From Corynespora cassiicola (lineage: Eukaryota; Ascomycota; Dothideomycetes; Pleosporales; Corynesporascaceae): a stretch of 64,000 nt of DNA. The stretch is taken from assembly GCA_022059125.1 (NCBI GenBank), contig JAEUWY010000012.1:1364001-1428000 (forward strand). The letters run 5' to 3'. The translations under genes were made by a program, and so were the position numbers. The notes under the pieces are model-generated. The model made no database searches. It was not told the DNA's origin and was given only the letters and a program-made list of their open reading frames with translations. This document shows positions 32,035 to 42,177 of this stretch, piece by piece (positions within the stretch are counted from its first letter, which is position 1; each line of letters starts with the position of its first letter).

Positions 32035-32045
32035 ATGACAATTAA

Positions 32046-32279
32046 TATGGCCGGTTCAAAGATAATCGTGGCCGAGGAGCATCCCATGCCGGTAGAGGCG
32101 GAAAGCACTTTCGAGGCTTCAACATACCTTTAAGGTTCCGTGGTCGTCAGGACTCTGGTGAAGATTTCACTAGATCCCGATGTGCTCATCAAGAAGGCGC
32201 CGGGACACCAGTGATTGCACCCTTCACACATCCACCGCAACCCGAGAATGCTGTTCAGCATGAATGTGTTGATCTCTCG
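32046..32279 (+). other. In-frame RGG-box extension of the first Argonaute
   Basis: The frame of the Argonaute exon stays open upstream to 32046, just after a TAA at 32043-32045. It encodes an Arg/Gly-rich stretch (NRGRGASHAGRGGKHFRG, then FRGRQDSGED) like the RGG tails at the N-terminus of many Argonautes. No ATG in this frame lies between 32046 and 32279. The nearest ATG, 32035, is out of frame by one base. So this is either coding sequence joined to an unseen upstream exon, or a tail lost by a small deletion. Confidence 0.6.
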
Positions 32280-35200
32280 ATGGGACCGGTTATAGTCAAT
32301 ATGCCAACTGCCAACATTAAGATCAATTCAGTGCGGGTGAATCGCCCTGACACGAAAGACAACATTAAAGCCCTACAATCGAAGGCAGCCACCTTACCAT
32401 TTCCACCGAAAGATGGAGTTACCCGCCCAACATCTGAAGTCGCCACAAACCACTTTCAAATCGGAATTGCCGTGGACCAGCAATTTTATAGGTACACCAT
32501 CTTGACACAGCCGCCTATAAGAAAAAACAGTATCAGGGATATTTTCAAGACCACTATCGACCAGTGCGATTTGCTGAAAAACAACGAGGAAGATTTGGTA
32601 ACAGACTACAACTCCTTGTTGGTGGCTTGGACATCTCTACACGACAACATCGAAGAATCCAAGTACCCAAAAAGTGGTCAGAACAAATGGGAGCTCATTC
32701 GTCTACAACACGAAGAAGGGGAAGTTCAAGTGCACATTCAGTTCGAAGGTCACATCAATGTGAAACAAATAATGAGTATCAAAAACATGAATCCCGACCT
32801 AATGCAAGTGGACATCCAGCAGGACCTTCGGGCACTGAACCTTATTGTTTCGAAGGGCCTCGACAGGAGTGGCATTCTTTCAGCAGGACCAAACGAATTC
32901 TTCATCAAGGTCGCCCGTGAGCCCTTGACAACGAGCTTGTTCACCCTTCGCGGCTACACTTACCAGATCAAGCTGGGGATGGGAGCGCTTTTGCTGAATG
33001 TCAATTCCTTGACAAGGATCTTTTTCAGCAACCTCCTTCTAAGCGAGGTATTGATGGACTTCCAAACATTTCCTTCGTTCCGCCAAAGCGAAGGACTAAT
33101 GGCTCATCTGGGGGGGGTTCAAGTTTGCCTCACATACGAACGAAAGCATGCGGATGACACGCAAAAAGCCTATTTGAATAGCCATCAGGCGCGCATCAAG
33201 ACAATCGCGGGGTTTGGAGCTCCTTTCGGTCTGCAAACATCTTATTGCGGTGGTGATACTCGGCAGCGGGTTGAAGACTTTCTCCGAACAAGTAGGTTTT
33301 CGCGCATGGCCAAACCACCGATGGTCATTATGTTAATTCCCGTCCGTCTATTTACACCCAACAGGTCATAACGTAAAGGTATATCTGCCTAGTCTTCCAG
33401 CAGTCAACCTTGGGACAATCGAAAAGCCAGAATGGTACGCTCCGGAGTGTCTTCAAATTCTACCCTGGCAATATTACAGAGGGACTCTCCCAGAGCATAT
33501 AGCCTCGATGATGCATGAAGTTTCTCGCCACCGGCCCGCTCAGGAGGCTCCTCTGCTCGTGGATGAAGCTTTGGAAGCTATGGTAGTATCCAAGGAACGG
33601 AAATGCTTTCTACGTTGTCCATCCATCTGCATAGAGCCAGAGTTGGTGAGAGTGCCAAGTTCAACGCTTCCATTCCCAGATATCTGCTACGCAGACCAGA
33701 AGATTACTGGTGGCATATCCTGGAACGTGGCAAACAAGAAGTTTTATCGGCGCAAGAGAAAAGATTTCTCAATTGCAGTTATTTCGGACTGTTACTTGGA
33801 TAAGGAAGCAAAAGCTTTTTTGCATGAAATTTGCGTGGCTGCCGATCAGACTTTCGGCGTGGCAAAGATGAAAGTTGTTTACTTGACGAGCATTGAGAGT
33901 GGTAATAATGGAGTTGTTGACCCAGCTGAAATGAGGAAAGCCATGGATCCAGTTGGTACGGATATCAACTTCTTTTTCTGGATACCTAGAGTAAGATCGG
34001 CTCAGCCATATGCCTGCTTCAAGTCTCTCGCGGATCGCGAATTCGGTATTCCATCCCAGTGCATCACCAAACAGAAGTTTGGAGTCTGGAGCCGGGAGGA
34101 AAAGATTGCAAATTTCATCATGAAGACGAACCTGAAAACAGGGGGCAGCAACCATACGGTTGAAGAACTTCATACGGTCATGAATACTACACTTGTTCTC
34201 GGCGCGGACGTTATACATACTGGTGATTTAGATTTTCCCGGTACCCCTTCTATCGCTGCAGTTGTGGGCTCCGTCGATAAATCGGCCGGCAGGTTTTTGG
34301 GGTTTGTCTCGATCGTCATTGTGATATCCACTTTTTGCTGATTCCTCTAGGTCGATGCGTCTTCAACACAGGCCCAATGCAGAAGTGGAATTCCTACACA
34401 CCCGTTATTGTATGCGCTAACCATTTCAGATCATCGACGAGCTTGAGTCCATGGTCTGTGAGCGCATCAAGGACTGGGTCATTGAACAAAAGAGACGCCC
34501 GGGACCGACCGGCAAACTACCGCAAACAATTTATTATTATCGCGACGGCGTAAGCGAGTCCCAATTCGAAGCAGTTAGAGATGAAGAGCTGCCTTTGATC
34601 GAGAGTGCGTTCGCCAAAGCAGCTGCAGAACTCGATGATGAAGGACATATTCACCAAGCCAGCAAACCGGTTCCGCCAGAAATAATGGCCATAATCGTTA
34701 GTAAGCGAAATGATGCCAAGTTCTACCCGCTTCCAAACACGGCGGACCGGTATGGAAATACCCATCCCGGAACTCTAGTTGATGACGTGATCACGTCGCC
34801 ATACCTTCAAGACTTCTTCTTGCAGTCAAATAGTGCGAGAATAGGAACGGTCAGACCTACACACTACTTTGTGATCAGAAATGACCCAAGAGTATCAACC
34901 GCCAAGTTGTGCGCCTTTGTGAGTACCCCAATTCCCCTTCGTCGACTCGCTAATCGCTGATCCTCTCCAGACCCACCAGCTATGCTTCACTTATGTCCGT
35001 ACCCCTGGTTCAGTATCATATGCCTCTCCCGCATATTATGCCGACCGCCTTTGCGACCGTGGCATGCAGTACCTGCTCAACTTCTTTGAAAACAGTGAAA
35101 ACGTTAAGAATTTCAAGACGGAGCACACTAAGTTCAACAAGAACTGTGAGAACGCGCTGCGAAGAGAGAGATTCAAGCTATGGGGTCCGAGCATAAAAAA

Positions 35201-35393
35201 GGGTAGCAACGGGAAATGGACTCGTCGCGAGAAAACACTTGTGGAGCTAGAGCAAGAACAGCTGGACAGGGCACTGGTCGACAAGGAGTGTGAGAGGTGG
35301 TCGTGGGAACTTTTTGCAAAGCATTTCTATGTGCATGGCATGGGCAAAAATCCGTGGCATCCGAATATCACAAAGACCATGTTTTGGATGTGA
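32280..35393 (+). CDS. Argonaute (PIWI) protein, catalytic residues intact
   Basis: Predicted small-RNA-guided silencing nuclease. Exons are 32280-33291, 33365-34301, 34351-34384, 34430-34918 and 34971-35393, all in phase, 964 residues from the first in-frame ATG. Domains in order: N and linker 1 (VATNHFQIGIAVDQQFYRYT, then LLVAWTSLHDNI), PAZ (ending VKVYLPSLPAVNLGTIEKPEW and LPEHI), MID, PIWI. MID residues binding the guide 5' phosphate are present: Y and K in PYACFK, Q in PSQC, and both K in NFIMKTNLKTGG. Catalytic acids: D in GADVIHTGD, E just before IIDELESMV, D in YYYRDGVSESQF and D in YYADRLCDRG. It ends in the conserved TMFWM. GADVIHTGD departs from the usual HPG. Sequence is divergent from the QDE-2 type; it is followed in tandem by a decayed homologue. 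Confidence 0.9.
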
Positions 35394-35956
35394 GTGGTGG
35401 TGGAGTTGTCGTTAGTCTTATCGGATGAGATAGCGACTGGCGGCTGGCGTCTCGCAGTAGCTCTGCAGTAGCAGTTATTGTATCACTGCTGGTATTATTG
35501 TCTGTAACTAGATTAGTTCGCCGTCTTTACACGAATTCCATCAGATTACTATCATCTTCTTAATGGTCCAAGGCTTGAGTGTAGCGCACGTCTCCACTGT
35601 CAGCATAGAATTAGTGGACATGTCTTATTCCTTCATGCTGAAACCTACGTCTTGCAAGAAATGATTTTGATTTATCGTCTGCCAACGATAACTTTAGGAT
35701 AAAACTACATTTCTGTGGCTTTTGCGAGCAGATAGAAGCACGTGTACGAGCTCAGATTGTCTCACATAAGATTTCAAGCGCGCAAACTGATTGGCAAGAT
35801 CAATCATATGACTGAGACCGGGTTCAAACTCACGACAATTAGTCTTGAGATTTGGCAGTCAATCATGTTCACTCTGTATATATAGCCCATCTGATCTCTT
35901 ACAGAGATCACCATCGACTCAATGCGATCTCTATTTGACTTCAATCCTTTCCAACA
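35394..35956. other. Intergenic region between the two Argonaute genes
   Basis: A 563 bp AT-rich stretch holding the 3' flank of the intact Argonaute and the promoter of the second, including the TATA element at 35877. No open frame of note. Confidence 0.6.
35877..35884 (+). promoter_or_regulatory. TATA box of the Argonaute pseudogene
   Basis: An exact TATATATA run 73-80 bp upstream of the ATG at 35957, followed by a pyrimidine-rich leader. The spacing is as expected for a core promoter, implying that the pseudogene's promoter survives. Confidence 0.5.
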
Positions 35957-38900
35957 ATGTCTTTTACAGGCAGACAAAACCTACCGCAGGCCATCAAAGA
36001 CCGGATCCGGGACTATCGATATGAGATACCTTGTGCCTGGTGCGGGTATCGAAATCATCATCTTTTGTCTTGTCAGCGATCTGGACAAATACCACCTATG
36101 ACCAGTTCAATCGCTCAGATGATCGGTATCCACAATAGGGGAACGCTAGGAGCTGCGAGCGCATTCATTGAAGAACTCAAGAACAAAGAGGGAAACTTAC
36201 AGCGGCCTCAATTTGATACTACACAGCAACAGAACTGAGGACACTACCGTCATTGTTCAGCGAATCAGAGCAACTTTGATATGAATCGAACATATCAAAA
36301 TACACAAAATCAGGAAGGTGTCAATGTGAACAACAGAACAGAGCACAACCAAACTGGTCCAAGGAACTGCAGCAACAACAACATAAATAGCGACATGTAC
36401 TATCCGGCAACCAATAATTCAGTACTAGCGGGTGCAAGTGGCGGAACACCGTGGAGAATGCCCGAAGGTGTCCGGAACCATAGGGAGGTTTTGAAGATTG
36501 AGAATCCGACACATCCTATCTGAGAAAGCTTTAGCAGAACGTCTGGCACTGTCTTCACTAATCACTTCAACTACACCGTTGACGTATACACCAACTTTTG
36601 GCTGTATGAGATCTTGGTACCAGACTCGGAGGATAAGCGAGATACTAAAAAATGCCTCAGACTGGCAGTGGAACAGTGGAGCTTTTTGAACACCAACCGC
36701 CAATACTTTGCAACGACGCATACGAAGCTTTTGGTAGCTTGGCGTAACCTCCATCAAGCGATCACTGAGACTCCCACTGCTGGGACCGGTCAGGTTGGCT
36801 CCACTTGGTCATTGGATATAGCAAAAAGAAACAGGGCCATCCCTCTTCGGTTCAACATCGTGCAGGAATTCAATACAAACACTATGTTGTGGTACGCCAA
36901 TATAAACCCCGAATACGAGGCGACAAACTTCAGCCAGTTCGCCAACGGCCTTAACATGATCGTCAACGAGAGTCTGGATCTTACCCGAGTTCACAAGCAA
37001 TCTGCCAACAAATTCTTCCCCAAGAACGCTCGAACGACTATCAGATCAAACTCGCTTGAAATTATTCGTGGCTACTTTTACAATGTGAAGCCAAGAATGG
37101 AAAACCTCATCTTCAATTTCAGTCTAGCACATAGTGCTTTCTTCCGCCCTATAATTGTCAGTCACTTTCTCCTTGACACTCACACTTTCCCCAATCTGGT
37201 GGATCGTTTGAACCGACTGAAAGGGCTTCGGGTATACATTGAGTACGAGCGCAAACCAGAGGCTGGTCGCATATCCACTGTTACGAACCATGACAAGGAT
37301 TGCTTCAAGAAGATCCGAGGGTTCAGTGAGGTGGTTATAGGCAAGCTAGAGTTTCAGAAGATTCTCAAAGGCGCCAATGGCAAGTTCTTAAAGAATCCAG
37401 GTGGCTCCTATCACACGGCGGACGAATCATCAAATGTTGCTTCTTATCTCGAAGATAGTAAGTGGTATGCAATCGTCTTTCAGATTTCTTACTAATATTT
37501 GTTACTAGCTTTCAACGACTTGACGGTTGATTGGTTGCTTTTAGCTGTCAATGTGGCTGAAAATGGAGATCCAATCTGGTACTCTCAAGAGATGCTTCGA
37601 ATCGTAACTTGTCAGATATACAGTCGAAAGTTTCCAAAATATCTTATTGGTGACATGGCTATAGTGGCCGCAAAGGCTCCGCGGGTCAGTAGATGTAATA
37701 TCGAAAATGAAGAACTCATTGCCCTTGGGTTTACTCCAAACGCAGACGTAAGTCAATTTGTAAGTTTCGAAGATATCAACATTGATTGCGTATGTGCTAA
37801 TAAAATGAAGCGTAACAATGTCCCGATATCTCTTGTACCGAGCATGCTACAAGTGCCCTGCCGGAACTTGGGCATTCCCCAGCCCCGATACCGGTACAGA
37901 AAGCAGATTCGATACTCACAATGCTTCTATCGCTGGAAACTTCCTAAATCCGAAACCGAATTTAAAATAAATTGCCTCTTCACAACCAAACCAAGAGTAT
38001 TTAAATATTACATTATACAAGACCGGAGGGTTAACTCTTCCAAGGCTAGCGAGTACCAACAAGATTTCCAGCAGCACCTCCCTAAGTGTGGATTCGGCCA
38101 TGGAGAAGCGCATTGCTTACCTGAAAAGATCATTGACACCTCCCTTTCTGAGCGAAACCAAATGGTGACAGCCTTGGAAGATGCCAAGAAAAAAGGTGCC
38201 TATCTCACCATGCTCATGATAGCAAATTCGAACGTGTCCATATATGCAACTTTCAAAGATCTCGTAGATCGCAGATTCGGGCTACAGTCCATCTGTATGG
38301 TAGTGACCGAGAGAGATAATAGCAATGACTACATGCTCAATGTATCAATGAAAGTTAACCTGAAGTTCGAAAGGACAAATCACATCGTCCAGGGAATCGA
38401 TGGCTACCTTTTTGACAGAAATAAAAGGGTCAATACTATGATCCTTGGTGCAGATGTTGTACATCCGGGCTCGAGCTCAATTAGTGGTTGCCTTTTCATT
38501 TCTGCCATCGTTGGATCAGTCGACAAGTGGGGCGCCCGATATCTCGGATCAATGCGTCTCCAAAGCGTCGGAAAACCGATCATGGGGTGAGACTCTGCCT
38601 TTCATCAATTATCATACATTCTAACTACTCTAGATTATTGATGAGGTGGAGGCTATGGTTGAAGAACGCCTATGGGATTGGACAGAAGAGCCAGAGGATG
38701 AGAATAGCCAACGACAGCGCCAGGAACTGCCCCAAAATATCATCTACTACCGAGATGGTGTGGGCACTGGCCAATACGAGGCGGTAAAATCCACCGAGGT
38801 CCGGGCAATTCGAAGGGCCTATGTCAATGTCGCAAGGCGCATGAGGGTTTCAGAGGGCGTTAGCATCACAGTAATTGTCGTGACAAAGCGCCACCACACG

Positions 38901-39587
38901 TGATTCTATGCGATTGATGGAGGGGATAGGTATGGAAAGGGCAGCACATTACCAGGAACCTTTGTCGACAAACTCGTCGCTTCTCCGTATTATCGGGACT
39001 TTTATCTGCAGTTACACATTGATGTCAAGGGTACGGTGCGACCAGCTCACTATTTCGTTCTCGAAAATGACACAACTCATCTGAGTTCAGGTGACTTGCG
39101 GGACTTGGTAAGCATGATTAATTATCGTCGCCCTATTGAATACCTGCTAACTTGGGTAGACTCATAGCTTGAATTACCCATACGTCCGCTCGCTAGTCGT
39201 CGTCTCCTACGCCTCCCCCACATACTACGCAGACCGACTCTGTGAGAGGGGAAGGTTGTATCTGCAGAAGTTCTTTGTTACGAACGTAGATGAAGATCTT
39301 TACAAGGACTTGAATAATTTCAAGAACGAGCAATCTGATCTCCAGAAAGCGGACAGAGACAAAAAGTATGGACCTGGAAGACAAAATAAGTCGGATAAAG
39401 GGCGGAGGAAAGCGAAGGACGATAGCAAAGCGGTTACTCTGGCTGTACAGGAGTATATTTCAAAGGAAGCAAAGAAGGCCTTCAGGAACAACCCGGACGA
39501 TAATTAACTCGATGCCGATAAAAAAGAACCGTGGAGCAATTCATAGCATCGAAATCTTGAAAAAAAAAAACAATGTTCTGGATGTAG
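35957..39587 (+). pseudogene. Second, tandem Argonaute, disrupted
   Basis: Homologous to the gene at 32280 across N, PAZ, MID and PIWI (shared TNHF, LLVAW, VGSVDK, GSMRLQ, RDGV, YYADRLC), but diverged. Main segments are 35957-37457, 37509-about 38586, 38634-39113 and 39166-39507. The N-terminus has a CCHC zinc knuckle, CAWCGYRNHHLLSC. Lesions: TGA at 38901-38903 inside PIWI where KRHHT should continue with Arg and FY. The junction at 38586/38634 is out of phase, and no Glu precedes IIDEVEAMV (the catalytic Glu position). The last frame ends at 39505-39507 while the family's terminal MFWM plus stop lies at 39573-39587 in another frame. Two earlier TGAs (36236, 36521) could be intronic. The MID Gln is also replaced (LQSIC). 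D in GADVVHPG, D in YYRDGV and D in YYADRLC remain. Confidence 0.85.
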
Positions 39588-39979: not shown

Positions 39980-42177
39980 TCATCGGATCTCGATTTCCTG
40001 CAGACAAGCTATTTTGTGCCTCGCCCACAAACGCTCCATAGTGAAATCTCTCTCTCTCTTATCATGAACAAACTTGATGAAGCTCCCAACTCTTTTGAAT
40101 GCACCGCGTCGCGTACGAGGAGACATCAGTACCAGACCTTCGACGAAAGTTATAGTACCCCCTTCAGAAAGAGCATATTGGATAATCATCAAGACAAGAT
40201 TATCCAAGCTCCTTCCATAGTAATCGAGCGTCAGATCGTCCATCTTTACTATGAGTGGGGCATATAGGTCAAACTGTGTACTGCATGGTATCAGTTCCTC
40301 GTTTTCGTTGATAAACATGTTTATACGCCTCTCGGTTTCGATTTTGATTGAATGTACTGGAAGAAGGCGGCATTTGAGACGAATAAACCCCCTAGTGAGC
40401 TCCCCCGAAGGTTTTGTATCCACCTGGATATCCAACACGTCAACTACCTGGCGGATATCAGCCAAGGAGTACAATTGACGATAAGATTTAACGGTAGTAT
40501 GACTTCGTAAAACTGGACAGTCCGTGCTTGCCCAGCTCCATGTAGGTGCTCGCCATTTAGTCGGCCTAACTCTTGGGCTGAGTTCCTTGTCACCGTATAC
40601 CATCCAGCATAACTCTCTGGGAAAATATGCTCCCCACATTCCCGCTAGGAATTTACTATTCCAAGAAATTAAAGACGATCGTTCGCCATTGAAACTAGTT
40701 TGGAATTTGCTGTTCATGGCTTCTGAGACATTTTCAACGATTCCGGCTAGTGCGACCAGCTTATCTCTCCCTTTAGTCAATTGACAAGCGGAATATGCAT
40801 CTCTGAATGAACACCATTCTTCATAAAGAGACTCTTTCCAGGCGGTAGAAGGAGTTACATAGTGGCGTTGAGTAACATCTGAGCTAAAATCCAAAGTACT
40901 CGCTCGGTGAAAGTTATTCATAAGTTGTTTTAGGGCCCTGTTTGCTCTATAATTCTGCAACCCCCAGTCTGGCAGACCATTGGGAAAAAGTTCGTTCGCG
41001 AAAAGTTCATGGCATTCCCAATGCAGTGTTTCGCGAGTGAAATGTGCAATCCTGGGCGATAAATATCGTTCCTGCATTACCCAAGCTCTTTTATTCAGGG
41101 GAGAACTGTCGATGTTGTCTGTTAATCCCATCACACGTTCAATTGAATATCTGCCGTTTGGGAGGAAGCAGAAGCAAAGACCAGAGTGTCGAGAGCATTT
41201 GGCATCAACAATCAAGGGCATCAATGCTGTTGGATCTCGTTTGTGGAATAGGCCGATACTGCCATCTTTGGCTGCTGTGGCTGCTAATCCACACGAGGCA
41301 TGGCTATAGACATCTCTCATGCAACGTGCTTCGCTTGCCCAATCGTCCAGATCATCCTGGAAAATGCAACTGTAAAGGTGTCAATCCTGATATCCGGATG
41401 TGCACAACACTAGCTTACAGTGAATCTATCCACAGATACTGGAGTTCAAGTCTCCGGGTAACTTTAATAGCATCGCGAAAAGTTCTTGATAGCGTCGACA
41501 GCGGTATTCCTCTCCGTAATTGAGATTCCGTTCTCGCTGTTAACTTGAAAGGCTGTGAGCTTCCCCAACAGTGCGATAGAGTTGCATATTTTGCGCCTTG
41601 GTCAGTTTCGTTGCCCTGGCAAAGGCGTACATTGTCTTCATCATCCTTGCCCACATCTATAACTCTCTTTGGGATAAAACCTCTGCCTAGAAGATTGGAT
41701 CGACAACGAAGATGATTGTAATGACACTGCTTGTACTTGGTGGCAAGAAAATCCAAAGCAGAACTAGTACCAGTGTTGTCCGACAGGCGCTTAGTTATAT
41801 CGTTGAGCTCTATGGTTGATTAGACTGAAATCTATCGCATAATATTGATATGAATACTCCTTACCGCTGAAGGAGTAAAGAATTATCTTTTGGGTTTCAA
41901 TGAATGCAGGGTCCTCATATGACATGTCGATGACATACGGGCTAGGGCCTTCGATATCCGATTGAATTATATAAGTAGTGCTCTTCAACCCTTCGGCATG
42001 ATTCTCGGAGTATTTTGGGCCAGCCCAGAGTTTGGAGCACAGTGGGCACTTTGTTAAGAGAGCCAGTGCTAGAGAAACTGCATCGACATGGTGAACGAAG
42101 CGAAGTTGTGCTTCGTCGAATTTACTCTCTCCCCGGAACATCATCTGGCAGGCTTTACAAAAAGTCTCGTTAGACAT
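39980..42177 (-). CDS. HET-domain (heterokaryon incompatibility) protein
   Basis: Predicted nonself-recognition and cell-death effector of the HET family. Exons are 42177-41865, 41809-41419 and 41369-39980 (introns 55 and 49 nt), all in phase, 697 residues. The N-terminus has two Cys pairs (FCKAC and CPLC), as in many such proteins. The HET core spans about residues 165-330: YATLSHCWGSSQPFKLT, then LSRTFRDAIKVTRRL, LQYLWIDSLCIFQDDLDDW, SHASCGLAATAA and RAWVMQERYLSPRIAHF. Further in come LYEEWCSFRDAYSACQLT, RDKLVALAGIVENVSEAM and APTWSWAS, all typical of the family's C-terminal half. It appears intact. There is no STAND, WD or ankyrin domain, so it is the short HET-only type. It converges on the Argonaute pair. 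Confidence 0.92.

Follow-up and report, generated by a model that had tools for sequence, protein, structure and literature searches.

Fungal RNA silencing has mostly been described with two Argonautes, and two described types were used here for comparison, QDE-2 of Neurospora crassa and the Sms-2-type Argonaute of meiotic silencing. In the funRNA survey, the Pezizomycotina carry an average of 2.66 Argonautes with a range of 1 to 7 (PMC4290597), and rows from species with at least three Argonautes, including Zymoseptoria tritici, are described in a further report as outgroups of both groups (PMC6572790). Z. tritici has four Argonautes (Ago1-4), for which it is reported that Ago4 is without a homologue in Z. 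passerinii and that Ago1, Ago3 and Ago4 fall into highly distinct allele groups (PMC8303167), a pattern that fits gene turnover. Botryosphaeria dothidea also has four, and its silencing genes were reported to be expressed in response to mycovirus infection (PMC7325678).

The 44.35 Mb genome of Corynespora cassiicola (23 contigs) gave nine PIWI matches that were read as six Argonaute loci: AgoA on contig C5, AgoB on contig C15, and AgoC, AgoD and the pair W1 and W2 at three places on contig C12. Six loci is a high number yet inside the surveyed range, given the mean of 2.66 and the upper limit of 7. More than two Argonautes per genome is likewise the feature by which Z. tritici and B. dothidea resemble C. 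cassiicola, a likeness drawn from their descriptions, while a tandem pair and a zinc knuckle are not mentioned for either species in the accessible parts of those sources. There were two Dicer-dimer matches in the genome and five RdRP matches read as three loci. One RdRP locus (C15:1231780-1233726) has a TGA and a TAA inside the matched frame, which are either in introns or a sign of decay.

W1 and W2 lie on the plus strand of the window, by which we mean the whole 64,000-nucleotide stretch that was analysed (C12:1364001-1428000). The original prediction of two neighboring Argonaute genes on one strand holds: the last base of W1 is 35393, the ATG of W2 is at 35957, and 563 bp separate them. 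All six landmarks that this prediction had named as common to the two (TNHF, LLVAW, VGSVDK, GSMRLQ, YRDGV and YYADRLC) occur in both translations. The pair is also far from identical, with 30% identity over 936 aligned columns, and at the DNA level the locus matches one place in the genome, which is itself. A Pfam search with six submitted pieces returned ArgoN and Piwi in pieces of W1 and ArgoL1 and Piwi in pieces of W2, and called PAZ in neither; the PAZ columns of an aligned relative (P0004) were 98% filled in both. Taking Pfam and alignment together, with PAZ by alignment only, the ArgoN, linker, PAZ, MID and PIWI regions are covered in each gene.

A second strain (Philippines), compared through protein models only, carries the same pair. 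The nearest database protein to W1 is the W1 half of P0001 (98% identical), a public model of 1646 residues that is an automatic fusion of W1 with part of W2, and since this model holds both genes the pair is not an assembly artefact, an option that had been left open beforehand. The nearest database protein to AgoD (P0177, 97% identical) is the AgoD of this strain and has the same length as the one here, where the gene is open over 973 codons. Between the strains, 19 of 1038 residues differ in W1 (1.8%), 30 of 973 in AgoD (3.1%) and 50 of 603 in W2 (8.3%), the last count covering the residues kept by the Philippine model (604 residues, 508 gap columns) and so skipping the broken parts. The protein of W2 has therefore changed more between strains than that of W1 or AgoD (Fisher p = 1.2e-9 for W2 against the other two together), the odds of a residue difference being 2.8 times those of AgoD and 4.8 times those of W1.

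The W1 gene (32046..35393) was joined from coding exons at 32046-33291, 33365-34301, 34351-34384, 34430-34918 and 34971-35393, whose ends were placed by eye with relatives as a guide. Once joined, the exons give 1,042 codons without a stop between 32046 and the closing MFWM, and the four introns (73, 49, 45 and 52 nt) are all of the GT...AG type. The catalytic tetrad reads DEDD (34205..35045, with D at 34207, E at 34382, D at 34544 and D at 35043), in agreement with the Argonaute pattern DED(D/H) in the alignment, where DEDD is present in 61 of 75 rows, and the glutamate matches that of human AGO3 in the PDB comparison. Small-RNA-guided slicing by W1 is predicted from its sequence.

W1 had been called intact, which holds for the catalytic site and for everything downstream of its start region and fails at the start itself, where this assembly has no in-frame ATG ahead of an RGG-rich N-terminal tail (32046..32280). 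Neither the ATG at 32035 nor that at 32047 shares the W1 frame, and one that does is met first at 32280, past the tail. Splicing of a 59-nt GT...AG stretch (32092-32150) would bring the ATG at 32047 into the main frame, and the W1 protein of the Philippine strain starts in frame with the tail present, so an open version exists. The discrepancy could be a real difference, a one-base assembly error, or one that is bypassed through the 59-nt intron or the later ATG. With its start out of frame in this assembly, W1 could be decaying as well, and it is conceivable that both genes are on their way out at this locus, with the W1 start frame lost, no W1 protein made and AgoD left as the working member. 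In both strains AgoD has an open frame and the same length, as that explanation would have it. The rest of W1, however, is open and shows the fewest between-strain differences of the three genes, and the later ATG, the possible intron or a base error could each account for the start; we regard the loss of both genes as rather unlikely.

For W2 (35957..about 39587), the view that the gene was dying has stood. Its exon pieces (35957-37457, 37509-37747, 37811-about 38590, 38634-39107, and 39160-39504 and on) are interrupted by premature TGA codons at 36236, 36521 and 38901, and the reading frame changes at the PIWI intron (38590-38634). A TAA follows at 39505, and the MFWM that should close the protein (39573) is in a different frame. 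The site of the catalytic glutamate (38530..38650), next to the frame change, is a glycine by alignment, so that the tetrad is DGDD in the window and departs from DED(D/H). It reads DG-- in the W2 half of the Philippine model, and the glycine is found in both strains. At the position of the 36521 stop the Philippine gene has a sense codon, and its model stops short at a different place in PIWI. The several disabling changes point to W2 as a pseudogene, and the model of the second strain likewise ends early. Single-base artefacts at the W1 start or in W2 are possible.

The tetrad is not needed for binding in all Argonautes. Since TGA is the codon at each of the three stops that precede the TAA at 39505 and most of the W2 frame can still be read, W2 might still act, either through read-through of these codons or at the RNA level, perhaps by giving rise to small RNAs. 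The frame changes and the loss of the glutamate argue against such a role, as do the early stop at a different place in the model of the other strain and the raised odds of residue difference, and we consider it improbable. Repeat-induced point mutation (RIP) after duplication was weighed as a source of the lesions, W2 being a member of a duplicated gene family in an ascomycete with stops that are TGA. Copies that are 30-38% identical as proteins are too far apart for RIP, and the indices of W2 (TA/AT 0.72, substrate 1.21) are close to those of the whole window (0.67 and 1.28) and carry no signature of the process. RIP was rejected as hardly tenable. In the reading we favor, the loss of the catalytic glutamate from W2 would predate the split of the strains, and separate lesions would have gathered afterwards, making it a pseudogene.

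The relationships of the pair were taken from trees of 63 and 69 rows (quick searches with SH-aLRT support only) and an AU test on 34 rows. Relatives were collected by searches that needed shared five-residue words, so the limits of the clade are unsure, and the tree omits one match from beyond the class, Termitomyces P0188. In both trees W1 grouped with proteins of Alternaria, Ascochyta, Pleomassaria, Paraphaeosphaeria and other Pleosporales (P0002-P0007, P0009 and P0016) and W2 grouped with Massariosphaeria P0017, Parastagonospora P0021, P0027 and P0028, with AgoD in the sister group of the W2 group. The W1, W2 and AgoD lineages fall in one Pleosporales clade (SH-aLRT 100). A wider clade of 66 of the 69 rows is parted from AgoA, AgoB and Thyridium P0055 (SH-aLRT 99), the placement of AgoB, AgoC, P0055 and P0039 being unsure on account of their long branches. 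The wider clade takes in several unnamed metagenome proteins, and its named members here are all Dothideomycetes; Thyridium is a Sordariomycete.

A clade distinct from QDE-2 and Sms-2 had been proposed for the pair, and for QDE-2 this is borne out. QDE-2 is represented in the trees by the QDE-2-like AgoA, and W1 and W2 are outside its branch at the SH-aLRT of 99. They share with QDE-2 the N-PAZ-MID-PIWI layout, and DEDD and an RGG-rich tail are found in AgoA and the W1 frame; W1, taken from Met 32280, nonetheless scores 120 bits to PDB 2yhb compared with 289 bits for AgoA. A separation from Sms-2 would depend on AgoB, its sole representative, which is presumed to be one by elimination. AgoB matches PDB 2yhb at 143 bits when its first exon is left off; an Argonaute fold and MID-PIWI motifs are the likeness to the Sms-2 type, whereas AgoB has the tetrad DEDH and falls on the outgroup side, and neither W1 nor W2 groups with it.

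Head-to-tail order, a spacing of 563 bp and the presence of the same pair in the second strain would all be expected had a local tandem duplication at this spot produced W1 and W2 with one copy decaying afterwards, and duplication at the locus had been suggested as the direct source of the pair. Forcing W1 and W2 of both strains together, however, lowered the log-likelihood by 150 units (p-AU 8.8e-78), and the two nest with different relatives, W2 having its best match in the genome in AgoD, which lies at a distance of about 0.63 Mb and is 38% identical to it, compared with 30% for W1. W1 and W2 are not each other's closest relatives, and in these trees the split between their lineages is older than the splits among the sampled relatives of either. 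A recent tandem duplication is rejected by the AU test and we hold an origin of the pair by local duplication to be highly improbable, although a tandem duplication older than the two lineages is possible. A segmental duplication was also discarded, as 183 frames from the flanks in the window had no match around AgoC or AgoD at E 1e-3. A further 83 frames from the AgoC flanks had no match in the AgoD flanks or the window at the same threshold, and in this frame comparison the flanks of the Argonaute loci in the genome had none in common. The broader proposal of birth-and-death evolution is supported, and so is the view of one copy as catalytically plausible and of the other as broken.

AgoC (C12:130001-136500) is probably another decaying member, as judged from a hand-joined model in which 44% of the N, 20% of the linker 1 and 66% of the PAZ columns are filled and the tetrad is DQDD. 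Its relative P0051 fills 62% of the PAZ columns, so the gaps in AgoC may be partly old or due to gene models.

Linkage in relatives was judged by the proxy of contigs of equal size, on which divergent paralogues were listed in three of the five species with two divergent rows. P0001 and P0177 of the Philippine strain are both listed with a contig of 2,316,887, P0021 and P0047 of P. nodorum SN15 with one of 970,256, and P0008 and P0018 of Neocucurbitaria sp. VM-36 with one of 2,766,258. The contigs were of unequal size for P0017 and P0025 of Massariosphaeria phaeospora and for P0002 and P0032 of Alternaria alternata, the latter perhaps from different strains. The original prediction was to be abandoned if the two genes belonged to separate ancient clades at unrelated positions; separate old clades were found, and unrelated positions were not borne out, given the equal contig sizes in three of the five species. 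The P. nodorum case is among the closest known likenesses to the present locus: SNOG_10566 (P0021) and SNOG_10546 (P0047) represent two of the clade's lineages, and their locus tags differ by 20. It differs in that SNOG_10546 groups with P0012, in a lineage other than that of W1, and in that the two genes are not adjacent by tag. The RRB1/GRWD1 neighbor and the clade Argonaute were on contigs of different size in all four species listed for both (Massarina eburnea, Ascochyta rabiei, Lasiodiplodia hormozganensis and Paraphaeosphaeria sporulosa, among 120 of 2463 matches listed, where the assemblies may differ), and a conserved neighborhood is therefore without support.

Taken together, W1 and W2 are probably neighbors from two Pleosporales lineages of an extra Dothideomycetes Argonaute clade outside the QDE-2-like branch, with duplication along a chromosome behind them, W2 a pseudogene and W1 and AgoD putative slicers. 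The clade would have expanded along one ancestral chromosome, the least secure step and one suggested by the linkage. W1 and AgoD would bind small RNAs made with the Dicers and RdRPs of this genome and would slice complementary RNA through the DEDD site, most likely transcripts of transposons or mycoviruses; the mycovirus response of B. dothidea may be a parallel for this role, by analogy.

The N-terminus of W2 has a CCHC zinc-knuckle-like motif (36032..36073) with the spacing C-x2-C-x4-H-x4-C. The exact spacing occurs in 10 of 75 rows, W2 included, where none was expected, and the looser pattern C-x2-C-x(3-12)-H-x(2-6)-C precedes the N domain in 26 of 75 rows against 0.05 expected from shuffling each N-terminus, in statistics that take no account of the kinship among rows. 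W2 and AgoC carry the motif, and W1, AgoA, AgoB and AgoD lack it. Its distribution is patchy, needing 13 changes on the 69-row tree, and short gene models may hide some occurrences. Pfam zf-CCHC was above the cut-off in one of seven submitted sequences (P0017) and was not called in W2, an outcome that counts against a proven zinc knuckle, and the putative RNA binding by the motif follows from its name. No title among the literature matches listed, which were mostly outside subscription journals, named a study of a fungal zinc-knuckle Argonaute or of a Corynespora Argonaute. A bolder proposal, which we offer tentatively and think somewhat doubtful, is that of a third Argonaute family of the Dothideomycetes with an ancestral N-terminal zinc knuckle, held mostly on one chromosome and subject to immune-like birth and death, in which the knuckle would select RNA targets or guides, W1 would have swapped it for the RGG tail and W2 would be caught in mid-loss. 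A clade in which an N-terminal motif of its own comes together with linked copies and a fresh pseudogene would, if borne out, be a testable system for the growth and decay of a silencing family, and its open genes, W1 and AgoD, merit attention.

Other features were observed near the locus and elsewhere in the assembly. A HET-domain (heterokaryon incompatibility) frame is located downstream of W2 on the opposite strand (39980-41380). Contig C12 starts with a telomere array (C12:1-4000), with none in its last 4 kb (C12:2550001-2554010). TTAGGG arrays inside contigs (C1:3554575-3554670 and C2:2190800-2190925) are either interstitial telomere repeats or misjoins, and among the matches listed there were further arrays at the start of C1 and near 5.76 Mb on that contig, and further matches near 4.06 Mb on C2.
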